Shown: piece after piece, positions 2,270 to 62,287 of the stretch
How positions within the stretch are numbered: position 1 is the first letter of the stretch
Layout of the letters: each line of letters opens with the position of its first letter
Source: Ktedonobacteraceae bacterium
Lineage (GTDB): Bacteria; Chloroflexota; Ktedonobacteria; Ktedonobacterales; Ktedonobacteraceae
Assembly (NCBI GenBank): GCA_035653615.1
Contig: DASRBN010000001.1
Span: 62,001-126,000 of the forward strand
DNA: 64,000 nt
Direction: 5' to 3'
Made by a program: the position numbers and the translations under genes
Notes under the pieces: model-generated
Told to the model about the DNA's origin: nothing
Databases searched by the model: none
The model's input: only the letters and a program-made list of their open reading frames with translations

Positions 2270-4189
2270 TTATCGCACTTGCTCCATGTGTAATATCTTC
2301 AGCCAGATATCCTGCCGGTCGTCATTATCCTGCGAATTCCAGGCCTGTTCCAGGCTAAAAATCACGTCTACGAGCGCGCCTTCCGGCAAGGACTCGATCT
2401 GTGACCCGCCGCGAATATAGGTGCCATTGAACTGGACAGTAGTGCCATTGGTAGTCGTTCTGAGGCGCACGCGCAGGTGGCGACCTTCCATACCGCTCTG
2501 CCAGCGACGATACAGGCGCAGGCGTTCCATCTTAAAAACAGGTTCTGGATTGCCCGCGCCATAGGGGGCCAGCATGCTCACTTTGTTATAGGCGTCATAA
2601 TTGAGATATTCCGGCTTCGTAATCAGCAGGTCAATCTTACGCGTGGTGGTTGGCGGTGCCAGTTCCTGCTCGATGACCGCACCAGGCTCAATCAATTGGG
2701 CCAATTCGGCGCCGCCGGTTATCCCAGATGTCTCCACGGCAGCTATTTCAATGCCGGGCGGGATAAGCGGGACCCCGTGAGATTCTGAAGCGGGCCGATC
2801 AATCGGCGCTGGGCGCGATGAATCGGCCCCTACGGTGTTTTCTTCGCGCCAGGCAAGTAGGTGGGCGTGCAGTTCCTCAATATTGGCATTGGCGATGGTG
2901 AAACCTGCGGCCTGGGCATGGCCCCCAAAACGCTCGAAAAGATCGGCGCGCTCGCGCAAGGCTAAAATAATATTGAAGCCATCGGCGCTGCGCGCGGAAC
3001 CACGGCTGGACTCGCTATCCTGGCTGAGGACGAAGACGGGACGGTGTATTTCTTCCGATAAACGGCCTGCTACCAGGCCGATAATACCCTCTGGCCAGGT
3101 CTCTTTATCGCCATATAGCAGCACGACCTGCTTGTCGGCCTGGCTCTGTGCCTGTTCTCGCACCAGCTTCATCAATTCCTCTGTCTGCTGCTGCCGCAGG
3201 AAGTTCAGTTCTTCCAGTTCTCTGGCGCGCTCTTGCGCAACGTTGGGATCGTCTGTCGTCAGCAGTTCAAAAGCGATGGCGGCATCCTTCATGCGCCCGG
3301 CGGCATTAATACGTGGTCCCAATACATATGAAATATCGCGCTCGCGCAGTTTGCCGGGCTGGAGGCGCGTAATGGTAATGAGCGCTTGCAGGCCAGGATT
3401 TTTCGTCGCATTGAGTTGTTGCAATCCCAGGCGCACCAGCGTGTGGTTTTCGCCGAGCATCTGCCCAACATCGCCGACAGTGCCGATTGCGACGAGATCA
3501 AGCAGATCGCGCTCTTCTGGCTCGCGACCATAGGCGCGAAAGAGCGCCTGCGCCAGTTTGAAGGCGATGCCTACGCCGCACAGGTAGCGTTCAGGATAGG
3601 TACAATCGGGCCGCCAGGGATTGATCATGGCACAGGCCTGTGGGAGCGGATCCGGGGGATTATGATGGTCGGTAATGATGATATCGATACCAAGACTTCG
3701 CGCATATTCAACGGCTGAAACATCCGAACTGCCACAATCGGTAGTAATGATCAGGCTGGTGCCGCGTCCGCGAATTCTGTCGATGCCCTCTTTGCTCAAT
3801 CCACGAATATCGCGCAGGCGGCTGGGTATGAAGCAATCCAGCGGAGCAGCGGGATGCTTGAGGGCACGCAGCGCGCGGATCAGTAGCGCGGCAGACGTAA
3901 CACCGTCGGCATCGAAATCCCCGAAAACCGTTATATGTTCCCCATTGGCAAGCGCGCGTTGAATGCGTTCCAGCGCCTTATCCATGTCGATTAATGTGAG
4001 TGGATCAGGAATCTGATCGTAGCGCGCATCGAGAAAGGCACGCATGGCGACCGGCGATTTGATGCCCCGATTGTAGAGCAATTGGGCGTGCAGGTATGCT
4101 ATCCCTGCCTGCTGGTATTCCAGCACTTGCTCTTTCGTCAGAAGATCATGCATGCCCCAGGACGATGTTGCAGAAGATGCTCTTTCCAC
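2270..4189 (-). CDS. recJ: Single-stranded-DNA-specific 5'-3' exonuclease RecJ
   Basis: RecJ degrades single-stranded DNA 5' to 3' in recombination and mismatch repair. The DHH phosphoesterase motifs are clear: DFDADG near residue 91, TTDCGSS, and ITDHH near residue 172. The DHHA1 motif GGHAQAAG lies near residue 410, followed by a C-terminal OB-like region. Length (639 aa) is normal or slightly long. The upstream-most start is a TTG at 4207, but a GTG at 4189 has AAGGA seven bases before it, so I prefer that. Residues about 452-466 are encoded by a copy of a dispersed 44-bp palindromic repeat, apparently tolerated in the linker after DHHA1. The gene follows hemW almost directly, so the two are probably cotranscribed. 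Confidence 0.93.
   Translation of the reverse strand: MERASSATSSWGMHDLLTKEQVLEYQQAGIAYLHAQLLYNRGIKSPVAMRAFLDARYDQIPDPLTLIDMDKALERIQRALANGEHITVFGDFDADGVTSAALLIRALRALKHPAAPLDCFIPSRLRDIRGLSKEGIDRIRGRGTSLIITTDCGSSDVSAVEYARSLGIDIIITDHHNPPDPLPQACAMINPWRPDCTYPERYLCGVGIAFKLAQALFRAYGREPEERDLLDLVAIGTVGDVGQMLGENHTLVRLGLQQLNATKNPGLQALITITRLQPGKLRERDISYVLGPRINAAGRMKDAAIAFELLTTDDPNVAQERARELEELNFLRQQQTEELMKLVREQAQSQADKQVVLLYGDKETWPEGIIGLVAGRLSEEIHRPVFVLSQDSESSRGSARSADGFNIILALRERADLFERFGGHAQAAGFTIANANIEELHAHLLAWREENTVGADSSRPAPIDRPASESHGVPLIPPGIEIAAVETSGITGGAELAQLIEPGAVIEQELAPPTTTRKIDLLITKPEYLNYDAYNKVSMLAPYGAGNPEPVFKMERLRLYRRWQSGMEGRHLRVRLRTTTNGTTVQFNGTYIRGGSQIESLPEGALVDVIFSLEQAWNSQDNDDRQDIWLKILHMEQVR
2792..2835. 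repeat. Dispersed 44-bp palindromic element, copy inside recJ
   Basis: This copy reads GGGCCGATCAATCGG, then GCTGGGCGCGATG, then AATCGGCCCCTACGG. Its two halves can fold into a hairpin. It is nearly identical to the copy at 58848-58891 and related to copies at 40915-40958, 43053-43199 and 18208-18255. Here it is in frame inside recJ. There is no sign of a gene on it. Confidence 0.85.
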
Positions 4190-4209: not shown

Positions 4210-5424
4210 TTATTCGTCGGGAAGTAAGCGCAGGAAGACCTCGTTGCCGAGCAGGCGCCCGCGCTTACTGAGACGCAGCCAATCCCCCATTTGTTCCAGG
4301 AGTCCGGCTTCTTGCACCGGGCGCAAGCGGTCGCCCGCAAAATGGCTAAACGGCTCCCCGAAACGCTGCTCGAATGTTGGAAGATGCAGGCCCGATGCGG
4401 TACGCAGGCCAAGAAATGCCGTCTCCGACATTTCCTGCGCGCGTTCAACCCTTTCGCCTTCAGCCTCGGGCCGGCGCTGTTGCTTGAGCAGGCGCATATA
4501 CTCCCGCGGGTCCAGAATATTGGAGAAGCGCCTGCCGGCGAAAAAAGAATGCGCGCCCGCGCCCATGCCAAGGTAGGGAAGATTGCGCCAGTAGGTCAGA
4601 TTATGCTGGCTCTGGTGGCCGGGCAGCGCCCAGTTGGAGATCTCGTAATTCTCATATCCCTCGGCCTGCAGGCGCTCATCAGCATACTCGTACATATCCG
4701 CGCACAGGTCTTCATCACCGGGAGTAATACGTCCTTCCTGCGTCCAGGCATAGAACGGTGTGCCCTCCTCAATAATCAAGGAGTAGAGCGAAAAATGTTC
4801 GGGATGCAGTGCAAGCGCCGAATCGAGCGTTTCGCGCCAGTGGCGCATGGTCTGTCCTGGCAGGCCAAACATAAAATCGAGGTTGATGGATGTGAAGCCA
4901 GCAGCACGCGCATGTTGCAAGGCCTCGGTGATCTCTTCAGGTGAGTGGATGCGCCCCAGCGCCTTGAGCAGGCCGGCATCGAAGCTCTGAGCGCCCATAC
5001 TGAGGCGATTGACTCCGGCAGCACGCAGTTCTACCAGCTGCTCGCGACAAAGCGTACCAGGGTTGGCCTCGAGCGTAATTTCGGCATCCGCGTCAACGGC
5101 GAAAGACTGGTGACACGCAGCAAGCAGGCGCGTGACCTGTTCCACCGTCAGAAGGCTGGGTGTGCCACCGCCAAAAAAGATGGTGCGCGAGCGGCGCGGT
5201 GACCCATCATCATGCCGGGCCATCTCTCCTGCCAGCTCTATCTCCGTCAGCAGAGCGCGGACATACGGCTCGCGCAGGGGCAGAATACCGGCATAGGTGT
5301 TGAAATCACAATAGTAGCAGCGTGTATGGCAGAAAGGGATGTGCAGGTACAGAGAAACGGTCTCTAAAAGTTCCTGAACAGGTATTGTATCAATCTTATA
5401 AATGGATGGCGTCGCGATAGTCAT
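4210..5424 (-). CDS. hemW: HemW-type radical SAM heme chaperone
   Basis: Radical SAM protein with the cluster motif CHTRCYYC at Cys32, Cys36 and Cys39, preceded by LYLHIPF. This is the signature of the HemN/HemW family. The following GGGTPSLL and ANPGT motifs are the SAM-binding parts. The length (404 aa) and the C-terminal HemN domain fit HemW, a heme-binding chaperone, better than true coproporphyrinogen dehydrogenase HemN. That distinction is from family knowledge. I chose the ATG at 5424. The frame stays open to 5574 only because it reads through a dispersed repeat, giving a spurious CHSERSEES peptide twice. AAAGG lies just upstream of the chosen start. recJ follows after 20 bp. Confidence 0.9.
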   Translation of the reverse strand: MTIATPSIYKIDTIPVQELLETVSLYLHIPFCHTRCYYCDFNTYAGILPLREPYVRALLTEIELAGEMARHDDGSPRRSRTIFFGGGTPSLLTVEQVTRLLAACHQSFAVDADAEITLEANPGTLCREQLVELRAAGVNRLSMGAQSFDAGLLKALGRIHSPEEITEALQHARAAGFTSINLDFMFGLPGQTMRHWRETLDSALALHPEHFSLYSLIIEEGTPFYAWTQEGRITPGDEDLCADMYEYADERLQAEGYENYEISNWALPGHQSQHNLTYWRNLPYLGMGAGAHSFFAGRRFSNILDPREYMRLLKQQRRPEAEGERVERAQEMSETAFLGLRTASGLHLPTFEQRFGEPFSHFAGDRLRPVQEAGLLEQMGDWLRLSKRGRLLGNEVFLRLLPDE

Positions 5425-5454
5425 GGATGGCCTTTTTTTATATAAAGCTGGAGT

Positions 5455-5483
5455 GGATTCTTCGCTGCGCTCAGAATGACAGG
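5455..5483. repeat. Single arm of the TTCGCTGCGCTCAGAATGACA repeat family
   Basis: One half-site of the repeat that forms full palindromes at 5525-5600 and 30271-30368 and looser pairs at 47679-47746 and 49723-49792. When translated in one frame it gives the peptide CHSERSEES, which creates false N-terminal extensions of neighbouring genes. Confidence 0.85.
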
Positions 5484-5524
5484 CCCCAGGAAGGAAAACG
5501 AGCAAAAGGGCACCGGCTATTCCC

Positions 5525-5600
5525 GCGAGGGATTCTTCGCTGCGCTCAGAATGACATGGTGCGCACCATGTCATTCTGAGCGCAGCGAAGAATCCCTCGC
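5525..5600. repeat. 76-bp perfect palindrome
   Basis: Arms 5525-5562 and 5563-5600 are exact reverse complements with no loop; the centre is TGGTGC/GCACCA. The outer part is the dispersed repeat seen singly at 5455-5483. It lies between hemW and the foldase gene, both on the minus strand. There is no T-run on either side, so it is not a standard terminator, although it would stop or slow polymerase as RNA. Confidence 0.95.
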
Positions 5601-30270: not shown

Positions 30271-30368
30271 GCCAGGGATTCTTCGCTGCGCTCAGAATGA
30301 CAGGCCCCCGCAGACAGCCGGCTGTCTGCGGGGGCCTGTCATTCTGAGCGCAGCGAAGAATCCCTGGC
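30271..30368. repeat. 98-bp perfect palindrome
   Basis: Arms 30271-30319 and 30320-30368 are exact reverse complements with no spacer. The outer 30 bp are the TTCGCTGCGCTCAGAATGACA repeat, and the inner 18 bp (CCCCCGCAGACAGCC) differ from the centre of the copy at 5525-5600. It lies between the M20 gene and the Rpn-like nuclease gene. Confidence 0.95.
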
Positions 30369-40009: not shown

Positions 40010-40456
40010 ATGAGCATTGTCGACGCAGCAGTTGGAGACACGCTTTCACCGCTGGTCAAGCCGCCGATCACATTGGAGCAACTCCAGCGCTATGCGGAAG
40101 CGTCGGGCGACCATAATCCTATCCATATCGATGAGGAGGCTGCGCACCGCGTCGGGTTGGACAGCATCATCGCTCACGGCATGCTCAGTATGGCCTTTCT
40201 CGGTCAATTCGTGATGCAGCAGATCGCCGGGATCGAGCATGCGGAATTTTCACAACTGAAAGTGCGCTTCGTCAACATGGTGCGCCTGGGCGATACGCTC
40301 ACCTGCCTGGGTGTGGTCAAGGCCCGCGAGTCTAATGGTACGCGAGATGCTATTACCCTGGAATGCTGGGCACAGAACCAGAAAGGCGAGAAAGTCACCA
40401 CCGGGGAAGCGGTCGTCTTTGTTCCATTGCTGCAAAGAAACGAGGTTGGCGCATGA
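40010..40456 (+). CDS. MaoC-like (R)-specific enoyl-CoA hydratase
   Basis: 148 aa. The hydratase-2 motif is complete: YAEASGDHNPIHIDEEAA (catalytic Asp34 and His39) and IIAHGMLSMAFLG. These hot-dog enzymes add water to trans-2-enoyl-CoA to give (R)-3-hydroxyacyl-CoA. Their broader relatives act on other CoA thioesters. GGAGG lies ten bases before the ATG. First gene of a compact operon; its stop overlaps the ligase start by four bases. Confidence 0.9.
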   Translation: MSIVDAAVGDTLSPLVKPPITLEQLQRYAEASGDHNPIHIDEEAAHRVGLDSIIAHGMLSMAFLGQFVMQQIAGIEHAEFSQLKVRFVNMVRLGDTLTCLGVVKARESNGTRDAITLECWAQNQKGEKVTTGEAVVFVPLLQRNEVGA

Positions 40457-42078
40457 CAGGCGAGAAACGCATAACAGACCTGCAGGATATCCAGGTGCTG
40501 TACGATCTTGCCATCTACAATTATGAACATTTCGGCATCTACAAGATGCTGATTTACGAAGACGCGCAGCACGAAGAGGTACGCGAGTATACAAATCTGG
40601 AGGTTGCGCGAGAGGCTACGCAGCTTGCCGCCGGTCTGCGGGCGCTTGGCATCCAGAAAGGCGACCGCGTCATCGTAATGATGATCAATTCGCCGGAGGT
40701 CATCATTGCGTACCAGGCGATTGCGCGGGCCGGAGCTATCATCGTTCCCGTCCTTCCCCTGCTCAAGGGACCCGAAGTGCGCTACATCGCCGAAAACTCT
40801 GCTGCTAAAGCCATTATTACCAGCGCGATCCTGCTGCCCCTCCTGCAAAATGCCCTCGCGGAGGTATCCACGATGGAACATATCATTGCGACGGGTATTG
40901 AGGCACGGGACGCGGAAGCCGATCAATCGGCGGTGGGCGCGGTAAACCGGCCCCTACGGGCTTATCGTGATGTTTTGGCGATGGGAACAGCATACGCGGA
41001 TCGTTTTCTTGAGGATCTCGAGGGCGTCTCGCTTTCGCCTGGTGATACATCTGTCACCATTTATACCTCTGGCACGACCGGGCGGCCCAAGGGTGTGATG
41101 CTTTCGCATCGCAACCTGGTCTCCAACGCGCTCAGTGGGCTTGGCACAGATAGGGCGGAACGCCGGGGGCAGCACCAGCTGACCGTTTTGCCCCTGGCGC
41201 ATAGCTATGGCCTGCTGGTCTCGAATGTCAGCTATTTAAGCGGCGCTACAATCGTGATGCACCCGCGCTTTGACACCGGCGCCGTGCTTGCGGCCATCGA
41301 ACGCTACCGCATTCGGGGTTTCGCGGGCGTACCGGCCATGTACGTGGCCCTGCTCTATGCGCCGGATGCTGACAAATATGATACCAGCAGCCTGGAGGAT
41401 TGCGTCTGCGGTTCGGCTCCGCTGCCCGTCGCGGTTCTGGAGGCTTTCGAGCAAAAATATGGCTGTCGCATCCTCGAGGGCTATGGCCTGACCGAGGCGA
41501 GTACCGTACTCACCGGCCATGGTGTGGATATGGTGCGCAAGCCCGGCTCCGTCGGCAAGCCGGTTGAGGGCGTCGAACTCATGATTGTGGATGACAATGA
41601 CCAGCCCGTGCCTACAGGCGAAGTGGGCGAGATTGTCGCGCGCGGGCCTAATATCATGCAGGGCTACTACAACATGCCTGAGGAGACGCGGGTGGCCCTG
41701 CGCAACGGCTGGCTGCATACGGGGGATATGGGACGACTCGACGAAGACGGCTACCTGTACATCGTCGAACGCAAAAAAGACCTGATCATTCGCGGTGGAT
41801 TCAATATCTACCCGCGTGACGTTGAAGAGGTACTCAACCGCCATCCGGCAGTGATCGAATCGGCGGTCATCGGCATCCCGTCCGAGCGTATGGGCGAGGA
41901 GGTCAAGGCCTTCGTCGTGACTCGCGAAGAGGTCGATGCAGAGACCCTCAAAGCCTTTTGTCGCGAATCGCTGGCGAACTACAAAACACCCAGCGAGATC
42001 GAATTTGTACGCGCGTTGCCGCGCAACCTGGTTGGCAAGATCGACAAGAAAGAACTGAGGAGAGGCCATGTCCATTGA
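40453..42078 (+). CDS. Acyl-CoA ligase (AMP-binding, long/medium-chain fatty acid type)
   Basis: 541 aa. TIYTSGTTGRPKGVMLSH (P-loop), GYGLTEAS, TGDMGRLDEDGYLYIV and RKKDLIIRGGFNIYPRD are the adenylate-forming core motifs. The catalytic C-terminal Lys is in NLVGKIDKKEL. The enzyme activates a carboxylic acid through acyl-AMP to the CoA thioester. Best guess for substrate is a fatty acid, from the FadD-like pattern. Residues ~155-169 (EADQSAVGAVNRP) come from a dispersed palindromic repeat inserted in frame. The start overlaps the MaoC stop, and the end overlaps the R2lox gene by 11 bp. Confidence 0.9.
   Translation: MTGEKRITDLQDIQVLYDLAIYNYEHFGIYKMLIYEDAQHEEVREYTNLEVAREATQLAAGLRALGIQKGDRVIVMMINSPEVIIAYQAIARAGAIIVPVLPLLKGPEVRYIAENSAAKAIITSAILLPLLQNALAEVSTMEHIIATGIEARDAEADQSAVGAVNRPLRAYRDVLAMGTAYADRFLEDLEGVSLSPGDTSVTIYTSGTTGRPKGVMLSHRNLVSNALSGLGTDRAERRGQHQLTVLPLAHSYGLLVSNVSYLSGATIVMHPRFDTGAVLAAIERYRIRGFAGVPAMYVALLYAPDADKYDTSSLEDCVCGSAPLPVAVLEAFEQKYGCRILEGYGLTEASTVLTGHGVDMVRKPGSVGKPVEGVELMIVDDNDQPVPTGEVGEIVARGPNIMQGYYNMPEETRVALRNGWLHTGDMGRLDEDGYLYIVERKKDLIIRGGFNIYPRDVEEVLNRHPAVIESAVIGIPSERMGEEVKAFVVTREEVDAETLKAFCRESLANYKTPSEIEFVRALPRNLVGKIDKKELRRGHVH
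40915..40958. repeat. Dispersed palindromic element, copy inside the acyl-CoA ligase gene
   Basis: GAAGCCGATCAATCGG, then CGGTGGGCGCGGTA, then AACCGGCCCCTACGG. It is the same family as the recJ copy and closest to the one at 43053. It is in frame and adds no stop codon. Confidence 0.8.
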
Positions 42079-43052: not shown

Positions 43053-43199
43053 TGGGGCCGATCAATCGGCGGTGGGCGCGGTATGCCTGTCCCCCAGACA
43101 GGACTGCCCGGCCCCTACGGCACAGCCGTGGGGGATGCATTGCCCGGCGGAGCCGTAGGCCCCGATTTATCGCGGGCACCGCCGATTGATCGGCTCCTG
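43053..43199. repeat. Composite palindromic repeat between R2lox and the Lrp-type gene
   Basis: A copy of the GGGGCCGATCAATCGGCGG element starts at 43054, and an inverted copy (CACCGCCGATTGATCGG) ends near 43195. Between them lie other small palindromes such as CCTGTCCCCCAGACAGG (43086-43102). The whole region can fold into one long structure. It fills most of the 227-bp gap in an otherwise gapless operon. Confidence 0.8.
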
Positions 43200-47592: not shown

Positions 47593-47678
47593 GCATACAA
47601 CCTGGCAGGCTGTGAAACTGGTTGAAACATTTTTGACCCGCAATGGATACTTTTGCCTATCGAAAAATCAGTAAGTCG

Positions 47679-47746
47679 TGTCATGCTGAGCGCAGCGAAG
47701 AATCTCACTCGCCACCGAAGGATTCTTCGCTGCGCTCAGCATGACA
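47679..47746. repeat. Inverted pair of the TTCGCTGCGCTCAG repeat (26-bp arms)
   Basis: Arms 47679-47704 and 47721-47746 are exact reverse complements with a 16-bp spacer. This copy has CATGCTGAG where others have CATTCTGAG, with the same change in both arms. It lies in the 383-bp gap (47500-47882) between the divergent kinase and glycosyltransferase genes, which otherwise shows only the kinase promoter. Confidence 0.92.
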
Positions 47747-47882
47747 GGCCCGATTTTGATAGTGAAATTTCCTAAATTTAGGAAAGAAGTCATCATTCGT
47801 TAAGTTATGCTTTCTTGCTACGTACATATATATAGCTACGTCAAACTCTAAAGACAGTAATTCTTACATCACACACATCCTT

Positions 47883-49652: not shown

Positions 49653-49722
49653 CGAACCCGAAAGAGGGCGACTACAAGGGCTGGCATGGGGAGGTGTTTG
49701 GCCTGGCAGCACCCCCTTGGGC

Positions 49723-49792
49723 CCTGTCATTCTGAGTGCAACGAAGAATCCGTGTGCCACCAGAGATTCTTCGCTGCGCTCAGAATGACAGG
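49723..49792. repeat. Imperfect inverted pair of the TTCGCTGCGCTCAG repeat
   Basis: Arms 49723-49750 and 49765-49792 match except for two positions (TGAGTGCAACGAAG against the usual TGAGCGCAGCGAAG), with a 14-bp spacer. It lies in the 387-bp gap 49653-50039 between the two paralogous glycosyltransferase genes. Nothing else was recognised in the gap. Confidence 0.88.
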
Positions 49793-50039
49793 AAAGGGAT
49801 TAGAATGACATGGCCCGGAGCCGAGGATTCCCGATTTTGTTTAGTAAAGCCCATGAATTGAAGTATAGTAATTCACGGATAAATAATTTGGAGAGCAGGA
49901 AGTACCACAACGGGTTACCTGTAGTGTTTGACAGAGTTCTTGATAGTAGGATAGGGAAAATAGTAAGAAAACCGGTGACTACTCAAGATTTCTCGTCGTC
50001 CATAGTGTATGTGCATACAGTGTTTTTAGGAGCAGGATC

Positions 50040-58847: not shown

Positions 58848-58982
58848 GGGCCGATGAATCGGCGCTGGGCGCGATCAATCGGCCCCTACGGACGTTGTGC
58901 CTGAATAGCCACTGTTAGCTGCTTTTTGCGAGCGCGAGCAGGTATCAATCGGCCCCTACGGACGTTGTGTCTGAATAGCCAC
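58848..58982. repeat. Dispersed palindromic element plus 39-bp direct duplication at the acpS 3' end
   Basis: A full element copy (GGGGCCGATGAATCGGCG to CGGCCCCTACGG) is at 58848-58891. Bases 58874-58912 are repeated at 58944-58982 with one difference, offset 70 bp. The second copy holds the last codons and the stop (TAG, 58958-58956) of acpS. Confidence 0.85.
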
Positions 58983-59459
58983 GGCCACGGCAATGGAGAA
59001 GGCATTGAGGTCGGCTATGCTGACATCGAAAGCGCTGATGCCGAGCAGTTCGGCACGCCGCCTGGCGTTGCCGTGGAGCGTGACGGTGGGGCGTCCGCTG
59101 CGCAATTGCACGACTTCCATTTCGCGCCACGCAACGCCATGGATGCCGGTGCCAAGCGCCTTGCTGATAGCTTCTTTGGCGGCAAAGCGACCGGCCAGGC
59201 GCGTGGGCTTGCCACGGCATTGGCGCACCTCCATCTCGGTATACACACGTTTGAGGAAGCGCTCGCCGTGATGTTCGTAGACCTTGCGGACGCGATCCAC
59301 CTCGATGATATCGATGCCAACGGCAACGTTTACACCCTGCGTTGGGATCAATGGCGCGGGCAAGCCGGCTTTCCCACGCGGCCCGAAAAGCCAGTCAGGA
59401 ATCTCTACTCCCGGCTGGCGAACCAGTGGCGTAAAAAGCATCGGCAAATCGTCGTCCAT
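58956..59459 (-). CDS. acpS: Holo-[acyl-carrier-protein] synthase
   Basis: 167 aa. VGIDIIEVDRVRKVYEHHGERFLKRVYT (in parts) and RLAGRFAAKEAISKALGTG carry the Asp and Glu that bind Mg and CoA. AcpS attaches 4'-phosphopantetheine to acyl carrier protein. Two oddities: a ~45-residue N-terminal extension before the usual start, and a C-terminal VSIADLNAFSIAVAVA, where the family has a SISH-like string. The final residues (QTQRP) and the stop lie in a dispersed repeat that is also duplicated just downstream. The start is 11 bases after the UDP-glucose dehydrogenase stop. Confidence 0.88.
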   Translation of the reverse strand: MDDDLPMLFTPLVRQPGVEIPDWLFGPRGKAGLPAPLIPTQGVNVAVGIDIIEVDRVRKVYEHHGERFLKRVYTEMEVRQCRGKPTRLAGRFAAKEAISKALGTGIHGVAWREMEVVQLRSGRPTVTLHGNARRRAELLGISAFDVSIADLNAFSIAVAVAIQTQRP

Positions 59460-59470
59460 TGTATACCTAC

Positions 59471-62287
59471 CTATTTCCCGTCTCCTTCTATACCGATGAC
59501 CGATTGCTGTTGTATCAGGCTTGTGCTATCGCCTGATGGCAGCACCGAGGGGGCGGGACCTGTAGCTCGCCCGATACCGCGATAGACAAAGCCGAGGCGG
59601 CCCATCTCCGCCGGCTCGTAAATATTGCGGCCATCGATAAGGACGGGACGATGCATGGTGGCGCGAATCTGGAGCATATCGAGCGATTTGAATTCGTTCC
59701 ACTCGGTAACGATGACCAGGGCGTCCGCGCCTTCGGCAACTTCATAAGCGTTCTGGCAGAATGTAATCATATCCATGCGTATGCCTTCGCGCTCAAGCGC
59801 CTCGCGCCCGGTCTGCATGGCGACCGGATCATAGACGCGCACTTCGGCCCCCTGGCTTGTGACCCAGCGAATGATATCAACAGATGCAGCTTCGCGCATA
59901 TCGTCAGTGTTGGGCTTGAAGGCCAGGCCGAGGATGCCGACGGTGCAGCCGCGCAGGGAGCCAAGAATAGAGGTCAGCTTCGTTACGACGAGGCGGCGCT
60001 GGTCATGGTTGATATCCATGACGGCGTGCAGCAACTGCGGGTGCAGACCGGCCTCGTCGGCCATATGGGCGAGGGCGCGCACGTCCTTGGGGAAACAGTT
60101 ATGGCTAATCAGACCCGACGATGCGATCAGCGTTCCCGTACTCGTCTCCATGCTGTAGACAGTCGTTTCAACGTCTTTATGCTCGACTTCGCGCACGCTG
60201 AGCGTCGCGAATGCCCCATGACGATTGTAACCATGGGACTGTATATGCCCTTGATAGCCCGCTAGCAGCGCCTCTATCTGCGCAAGACGCTTGCCGCCGG
60301 ATGCCTCTTTGAGCGCCGCTACCTGTTCGTAGCCGCTCACCCGCAGAATATAGGCCTCCTGTTTCGATTTGTTCATCCGGCGCGTGTGAAGAGAGGGAAT
60401 AATCCCTAGCGTTTGCAGCAGCAGCGCCATACCATCCACCAGCGCCTTGCTGGCGGTTGCATATTCGAGCACCAGGTTTTGCCCATCCTGCACAGTTGTA
60501 ACCGGGCCATCGCAGCTGAAAGCGCCGCGTATCAATTCGCGCCGCAAATCCGGCGCTACATTAAATGCCAGGCGAGGCAGCGCCTTGTCTTCCAAGCGCG
60601 CACCGCAGCGCAGGATATCGCGCAGCAGCCAGCAGAAGATGCGTGAGGAGACAAGAGTTGTCAGGACATTGGTAGAGCGCCGTTCAATAAACTTGAGTCC
60701 CAGACGATGCAGGATGCGCTGCACATCGGCGATGTATTCGGCTTCCTGCTCGTGGAAGGTGAATCCTGCGCGCCCCGTATCCTGGGCAATATAGCCTTCC
60801 GCCAGATAATAGCCGCATAAACGCAGCAGGTCGGCATCGATTGGAATGACGGCATTGATCATCGTAGCCGCGCCCTTAGCCGTGTACAGCCGCAGCTTCT
60901 CCGCGGGAACATCGAGCACCTGTAACTGGCTCAGGTAGCGGAACAGGCGCAGCGACATGCGGTTATAACGCTTGATATCATGAGGATGCTTGAGCATATC
61001 CCGCGGTATCGCGGCAGCGAAGCTCTCATACTGATCGCTGAAGCTGTTATCGATGGGCCTGACATAGACATCGGCCTCCAGCGCAGTATTCGCCAGCAGT
61101 TCGACCAGGTTGAGGGTCATGGCCTGCTCGACGGCGGGCAACTCGCATAAGGCGAGCAACTGATCTCCCGGTACAACCGCTTCAGCCGCTAAAATATTGA
61201 ACTGTTGATCCTTGTAGACGATAACCGGATGGTCGGCGGTCACGCGCAGCACTCGTCCCATGCTGGTATTGATCTTCACCATCTTCCCCTTGTAGGGTCG
61301 TCGTGTGATGGCTTTTACACCGGCAAGGGTAGATTGTCCTGTCTCTAAGTCAAAGGCCAGCACGCGCTGATCTTCCGGCTGCAGGAGTTCCACAATATCG
61401 CCCTGAAATGGTTTGCCGCTTTTAGCAAACAACTTGTCGAAGCGCTCCGCTGCCACATTGGGGCTGTTGAGGGTGAAAACCGTTTCACCCGCCTCAAAGC
61501 AACTCCCGCCATAGCCCAGCCCAGCATCCAGGAACGCCCGCCCGATGCGCTTATCATAGCCCATACCGGCGGCCACTTCCTTCACATCTGCTCCGAGGCG
61601 CTCGCAGATTTGCGCAATCTCGTTGATGAAGGATATTTTGGTGGCCAGAAATGCGTTAGAGGCATATTTGATCATCTCGGCAGTATAAAGATCGGTGATG
61701 ACCGTGGGAGCGCGCAGCGGCAAATAGAGCGTCGCGACCTGGCAGGCGGCATCGTGATCCGCTGAACCCAGCACCACGCGATCAGGATTCTGGAAATCTT
61801 GCACCGCCGAGCCTTCACGCAAGAATTCGGGGTTGGAGACGACCGCGAACGGGACATCCGGCCGTTTCAGATTTTTACGGATGATGCGCGAGACCACATC
61901 TCCACTGCCCACGGGGACGGTACTCTTATTGATGATGATGGCGTAGTGATCGAGTTCTTCGGCAATGCCACGTGCCGCGCTTTCGACGTAGCGCATGTCC
62001 GCGCCTCCCTGGCTGGTGCCGGTGGGAGTGTTGACGGCAATAAAAATAAATTGGACATTGTCGAGCCCTTCGCTGTAGCTGGTGGTAAAATGCAGGCGGC
62101 CCGCGCGCACGTTGCGCTCGACCAGCTCTTCCAGGCCCGGCTCGTAAATAGGGAGAATGCCCTGTTTGAGACGCTCAATTTTTTCCGCAACAATATCGAC
62201 GCAGGTGACGCGATTGCCCATATCGGCAAAACAGGTACCCGTCACCAATCCTACATAACCTGTTCCTATTACACAAATGTTTGCCAC
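59471..62287 (-). CDS. ugd: UDP-glucose 6-dehydrogenase interrupted by an intein
   Basis: 938 aa precursor. The N-extein (residues 1-262) has [19 protein letters not shown] (NAD site), [24 protein letters not shown] and [11 protein letters not shown]. At the active site GLGYGGSC the sequence breaks into an intein (residues 263-730) and resumes as [17 protein letters not shown]. Splicing gives a 470-aa enzyme with the catalytic Cys restored in GGSCFPKD. The enzyme oxidises UDP-glucose twice to UDP-glucuronate for surface polysaccharide. The GTG start directly follows the MBL gene's stop (GAGGAG eight bases upstream). acpS follows. Until spliced, the enzyme must be inactive. Confidence 0.95.
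60098..61501 (-). mobile_element. Intein with LAGLIDADG homing endonuclease, inserted at the Ugd catalytic Cys
   Basis: 468 residues. Block A is [13 protein letters not shown] with Cys1 as the splicing nucleophile. Block B is VTADHPVIV (Thr88 and His91 of the intein). Blocks F and G are [14 protein letters not shown] and GLISHN, ending His467-Asn468, and the +1 residue is Cys. Two endonuclease motifs are present: [12 protein letters not shown] (225-236) and [10 protein letters not shown] (323-332), each with its acidic residue (Glu235, Asp331). All parts needed for splicing and probably DNA cleavage are intact. Inteins at this enzyme are known from archaea (Methanocaldococcus, from memory). 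Confidence 0.93.

Follow-up and report, generated by a model that had tools for sequence, protein, structure and literature searches.

The 64-kb stretch of DNA analysed here, hereafter the window, comes from the draft genome of a Ktedonobacteraceae bacterium and carries the same short repeat unit between genes and inside two coding regions. One of these is recJ (2270-4153, minus strand), which encodes a single-stranded-DNA-specific exonuclease of 627 amino acids counted from the ATG (TIGR00644, 477 bits, above cut-off) and holds a unit at 2792-2835, on the minus strand together with its GTAG tag, that fits a degenerate consensus pattern without mismatch and is read in frame O2 as VGADSSRPAPIDRP. 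The other encodes a long-chain fatty-acid-CoA ligase of 541 amino acids (40453-42078, plus strand; AMP-binding Pfam domain, NF004837 above cut-off), in which a pattern-matching unit at 40916-40959 on the plus strand is read in frame S0 as EADQSAVGAVNRPLR, the coding strand here being opposite to the strand of the GTAG tag. A preliminary description of this DNA had claimed that one element recurs between genes and in both of these genes, and that it never breaks their frame; with zero mismatches allowed, the degenerate consensus matches the window at exactly three places (2794-2835, 40918-40959 and 58850-58891) and at none in 100 shuffles of the window, and both genic copies are read through as claimed.

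Between genes, the third of these matches belongs to a unit at 58848-58891 (GTAG strand minus), to the left of which 'GGTAATGGACGC' is the remnant of a larger flanking palindrome. Close by, a partial unit (58944-58961, minus) overlies the 3' end of an acpS-like holo-ACP synthase gene (58956-59459, minus; TIGR00516 above cut-off), which takes its TAG stop codon from GTAG. A 39-nt stretch across the tail of the neighbouring unit is repeated 70 bp downstream with 97% identity (58874-58982), a local duplication that supplies the acpS end. The element reported earlier at 43053-43199 does consist of units, but as a pair of variants in opposite orientation rather than as a plain copy: one at 43054-43120 (GTAG strand minus), with its first hairpin extended by 20 or more nucleotides, and one of a GCCC/GGGC subfamily at 43153-43197 (GTAG strand plus), inverted relative to the first such that the two GTAG tags face each other (a TT dimer).

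Other features of the window deserve mention in their own right. A second repeat family (GGATTCTTCGCTGCGCTCAGAATGACA) is present at 5455-5487, 5525-5600, 30271-30368, 47673-47752 and 49719-49796, the copy at 30271-30368 being a perfect 98-bp palindrome. This repeat translates to CHSERSEESL and makes up the beginning of the longest hemW ORF (4210-5574, minus), in which HemW homology begins only at amino acid 74. Elsewhere in the genome, homoserine kinase and threonine synthase are fused in one thrB-thrC ORF (C35:94512-96977, or L116:14512-16977, minus), and the linker of this fusion holds both a REP unit and the CHSERSEESL repeat. Finally, a UDP-glucose dehydrogenase ORF of 938 amino acids (59471-62287, minus) appears to hold an intein: the TIGR01445 intein N-terminal region matches above cut-off at amino acids 263-357, and dehydrogenase profiles match the ORF in two stretches, the first of which ends near amino acid 266.

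Aligned over 111 copies, the repeat unit has a 45-nt consensus, GGGGCCGATNAATCGGCGSTGGGCGCGATNAATCGGCCCCTACGG, which on the opposite strand reads CC-GTAG-GGGCCGATTNATCGCGCCC-ASC-GCCGATTNATCGGC, that is, a GTAG tag and two hairpins; the conserved two-hairpin core measures 42 nt, or 14 codons. The genome-wide consensus search that had been proposed as a check revealed a sizeable family: in the 6.59 Mb of the draft genome (44 contigs, 95% complete), the 14-nt tail ATCGGCCCCTACGG has 173 matches with up to one mismatch, compared with 6 for the reversed control. Under a stricter pattern, five of 400 genomes of the phylum contain matches, 152 of them in the source genome, and the four other genomes all belong to the same family, with 9 and 19 matches in the two richest (genus g4). 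Where units cluster, they are mostly arranged tag-inward or in tandem (15 TT, 13 HT and 1 HH).

The GTAG tag, at columns 40-43, is conserved in 96-98% of the 111 copies; in the predicted fold it remains unpaired at one end of the unit, where a stem-loop has its foot. Compensatory variation in hairpin 1 is seen among 101 distinct copies, with pair 8-24 changed from G-C to C-G in 14 copies and to T-A in 2, pair 9-23 present as C-G in 16, and pair 13-18 changed from A-T to G-C in 13, counts that do not equal independent events, the copies being mutually related. Hairpin 2 is nearly invariant. We also considered folding of the whole unit into a single long hairpin, which gives a good fold in some copies, but the subfamily changes break that structure and keep hairpin 1. 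In some units hairpin 1 has a long extension (AGTCCTGTCTGGGGGACAGGCAT; window 43054-43120, the C44:8769 and C37:315934 regions, and others), resembling the long-loop REP variants of the literature.

A tagged, hairpin-forming repeat of this kind brings to mind the REP-associated HUH tyrosine transposases, or RAYTs. Searches of the source genome (draft, 95% complete) with Pfam, NCBIfam and a relative's protein found no RAYT. The only Y1 transposase of this genome, considered as a candidate mover, was set aside as an IS605-type tnpA beside tnpB, with no unit nearby. Of the family's 29 genomes, 18 have RAYT relatives. In the related genome G013, one RAYT gene (L332:1471-2004, minus; NF047646, 65 bits; both scanned RAYTs of relatives score under the curated NF047646 cut-off) stands between inverted pairs of CCGTAGGGACAAGATTTATCCTGTCCAGCGGCGATTTATCGCC, one pair on either side. 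The flanking repeat has the plan CCGTAG-GGACAAGATTTATCCTGTCC-AGC-GGCGATTTATCGCC, and its pattern is matched 24 times in G013, the matches mostly coming in pairs with a spacing of about 115 bp. It shares with the Ktedonobacteraceae unit the order of tag, hairpin, A[GC]C and a hairpin with GATTTATC cores, and folds into the same two-hairpin shape as the ligase copy. The stems, on the other hand, differ in sequence, so that homology between the two rests on architecture and short identities, and nhmmer scores are weak (13-17 bits). Two other near RAYTs have GTAGGGGCG repeats on both sides in inverted orientation; the RAYT genes of genomes G013 and G015 (L300/L314, L302/L312) lie amid several GTAGGGGCG hairpin repeats. 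The same-plan repeat around a relative's RAYT supports identification of the unit as a REP and, by inference, points to past mobilisation by a RAYT.

How the units are distributed relative to genes was assessed in 2.06 of the 6.59 Mb, some of it picked for holding copies, genes being called with a home-made program (coding density 0.77). There, 115 near-full units were placed, of which 80 are intergenic, 5 lie across gene ends and 30 lie inside 26 predicted genes. The unit is thus mainly extragenic, and the genic count is far below the ~88 expected at random (P = 1e-30), a strong depletion which indicates that genes have been largely purged of units. Contiguous contigs totalling ~1.82 Mb hold 22 near-full genic copies, which by rough extrapolation gives ~80 for the whole 6.59 Mb. 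Host genes include those for RecJ, RecD2, DNA polymerase III delta (holA), a HerA-like ATPase, an amidohydrolase, a glycogen debranching enzyme and the homoserine kinase-threonine synthase fusion, among others. In addition, the TAG of the tag serves as the stop codon of six genes, acpS in the window included.

The surroundings of the intergenic units raise the possibility that a DDE transposase moves a larger palindrome with ~30-bp ends (ATNATGnnTTTnACAAAATAnTCCGGCAA), a MITE of which the unit is just the core, and that the solitary units in genes are remnants of it. Palindromes of ~130-170 bp with ATNATGnnTTTnACAAAATAnTCCGGCAA ends do exist around some intergenic units, and 21 of the 80 have one such end within 60 bp. 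None of the 30 genic near-full units, however, has a detected TIR-like end (0/30 versus 21/80, p = 7e-4). Nor is a convincing target-site duplication seen around the unit: for k = 3-9 none occurs above control, the one exception being a slight excess among intergenic units at k = 5 (6 versus a mean of 1.8). Moreover, in a sister genus the unit is found between different ends (GTGTATGAAA...CAATTCATACAC), so that the unit, rather than the ends, is the common part. We therefore regard the MITE scenario as unlikely. As a separate observation, in relatives G015 and G019 (L195, L200, L203, L206) terminal inverted repeats of two different kinds enclose the unit, and these loci look as if one module were common to several palindromic backbones.

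Reading frames within genes are restricted. Depending on the copy, the unit is open in up to five frames; of the six, one almost invariably contains the TAG of the GTAG tag as a stop. Of the 30 genic copies, 29 use just three frames, giving peptides of the GADQSAVGAINRPLR (15 copies), VGADSSRPAPIDRP (8) and RRGRLIAPTADLSA (6) types. In intergenic copies, frame S1 is open in 46% and frame S2 in 50%, yet only one degenerate genic copy uses either (P = 1.8e-4; 7e-4 when each gene is counted once). The earlier statement that both reading directions are free of stops in the frames used is borne out, with the refinement that one frame is closed and two open ones are essentially unused. One might take this restriction (three of five open frames, P about 2e-4), along with the recurrence of DNA metabolism genes (recJ, recD2, holA, the herA-like gene) among the hosts, as a sign that the genic copies of this REP are beneficial and their peptides kept because they help the proteins. 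The depletion from genes points instead to purged harm, the frame restriction can also be explained by rejection of the two other peptides, and the gene-class recurrence is a small raw count. We consider benefit to the host proteins quite unlikely.

Comparison with relatives' proteins shows that the inserted residues are absent from them. The clearest case is the amidohydrolase (C19:245334), where a block of 104 residues corresponds to 86-88 residues in 24 of 24 relatives, a clean gain of 16 amino acids. The HerA-like ATPase has 106 residues against 71 in 6 of 6 relatives, the unit accounting for 16 of the additional 35, and a pullulanase-like gene (C1:60475) has 96 against 84 in 5 of 6 relatives (+12). 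HolA, RecD2 and the debranching enzyme also exceed their relatives in length, in variable linkers. In RecJ, the insert (amino acids ~439-454) falls between the DHHA1 (345-435) and RecJ_OB (513-606) domains by Pfam positions, in an inter-domain linker longer than that of relatives; homology to solved RecJ ends at amino acid 439 and returns only weakly at 504, and the nearest named RecJ relative in the genome collection scan is that of Ktedonobacteria bacterium brp13. The ligase unit (amino acids ~154-169) sits within a hypervariable loop and adds no net length over 15 orthologues, and the copy in a glycosyltransferase likewise brings no gain in length over relatives. In these two proteins insertion perhaps went with loss of neighbouring host codons, or the loops were replaced or arose by some other process. 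Because the RecJ and ligase copies both sit in variable regions, their alignments lack an exact empty site. AlphaFold models of modest quality (mean pLDDT 72 and 63), used for loop location only, put the amidohydrolase insert where a helix ends and in a loop of low confidence (362-381). The ligase insert comes out in an inter-strand region of partly low confidence (159-164). The preliminary description's estimate of about 15 added residues thus holds for RecJ, as a longer linker only, and finds no support in the ligase, where repeat-less relatives have loops just as long; presence against absence is clean in the amidohydrolase, the HerA-like and pullulanase-like genes also show a net gain, and in the ligase no net insertion is demonstrable. 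In no aligned gene do repeat-less homologues have the same residues.

The occurrence of in-frame copies in unrelated genes had earlier prompted comparison with the palindromic elements of Rickettsia (RPEs), and the likeness is genuine as far as behaviour goes, with loops and linkers as the sites, 30 near-full genic copies and relatives free of the residues. As to family the comparison does not hold, since RPE-4 and RPE-6 carry CGTC (PMC3733652). That an RPE-type element of the CGTC superfamily resides in this other phylum is very improbable considering the GTAG tag, the length of 42-45 nt, the occurrence of matches, out of 400 genomes of the phylum, in only a few from a single Ktedonobacteria family, and the agreement of the unit's plan with a RAYT-flanking REP. 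No more credible is that ordinary hypervariable loops resemble the repeat by convergence, or that genes were mis-called, for all that the ligase and glycosyltransferase loops show no net gain and the gene caller was home-made: at the DNA level, genic and intergenic copies are nearly identical along 42 nt, Pfam families are matched by 18 of the 20 host genes scanned, and the uniform-length orthologues of the amidohydrolase, HerA-like and pullulanase-like genes lack the residues.

The scenario we favour, with a probability of roughly 0.83, is that the unit is a GTAG-tagged REP, most likely spread by a RAYT-type transposase, and that its genic copies are most likely neutral passengers. The unit would be a short non-autonomous mobile DNA, one strand of which folds into GTAG, hairpin 1, A[GC]C and hairpin 2, and it would have spread as single-stranded DNA by the action of a RAYT that has since been lost from the lineage or resides in the unassembled part of the genome. 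Because the 42-nt core is a multiple of three, has no target-site duplication and is open in up to five frames, the frame of a gene can survive its insertion. Insertions into indel-tolerant loops or linkers would then keep the frame, insertions that break genes would be removed by selection, and what is left in genes would probably be passengers in surface loops and linkers. Let us also consider a bolder version, in which the REP has turned into a coding-compatible cassette: its 14-codon core and three usable frames would owe their form, or their retention, to residence in genes, new protein loops would arise from it again and again, and its present mover might not be a RAYT at all; this we hold to be rather unlikely.

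Irrespective of such details, the GTAG-tagged REP described here shows, with good controls, how mobile hairpins enlarge the proteins of a bacterium other than Rickettsia, one insertion being clean against 24 orthologues. From the frame restriction one can read directly which inserted peptides are tolerated by proteins, and the RAYT link in a relative supplies a tractable pair of transposase and substrate for asking how REPs enter genes.

Lastly, the unit needs to be placed among known systems. A literature search for REPs in Ktedonobacter found nothing. GTAG REPs, those of Chloroflexi included, were described by Di Nocera et al. 2013 (PMC3733652), with the GTAG-23 family of Thermomicrobium roseum among them; in-frame copies occur there, often in replication and repair genes, and the tag supplies TAG stops. 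The present element is of this known kind and its family is new, likened to the 24 families of that study by description rather than by comparison of consensus sequences. It resembles them in having the tag at the foot of a stem-loop, high copy number, a mostly intergenic location, compensatory subfamilies, long-loop variants, inverted dimers, TAG stops donated to genes, and in-frame copies often in replication and repair genes. It departs from them in having two hairpins, in a core slightly above the 20-40 bp stated for a GTAG-tagged REP unit (PMC3733652), in dimers that are mostly TT with 1 HH, in the RAYT not found in the genome, and in how many copies are in frame (26 genes within 31% of the genome). 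With REPIN-RAYT systems such as those of Pseudomonas (PMC3116915), the likeness consists of the G013 RAYT between two inverted pairs of same-plan repeats, whereas in the source genome no RAYT was detected and most units are not paired in that way. Like RPEs, the unit is inserted in frame in unrelated genes and tolerated in loops; it differs in phylum, sequence and tag, and in its 42-45 nt compared with the ~150 bp of RPEs (PMC10969869). Some intergenic units are, like MITEs, contained within palindromes with long terminal inverted repeats, in contrast to the genic units, which lack those ends, and to the unit itself, which has no target-site duplication around it. The fit to the GTAG REPs of Di Nocera et al. 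is close, and this Ktedonobacteria family is one that is unusually often inside genes.
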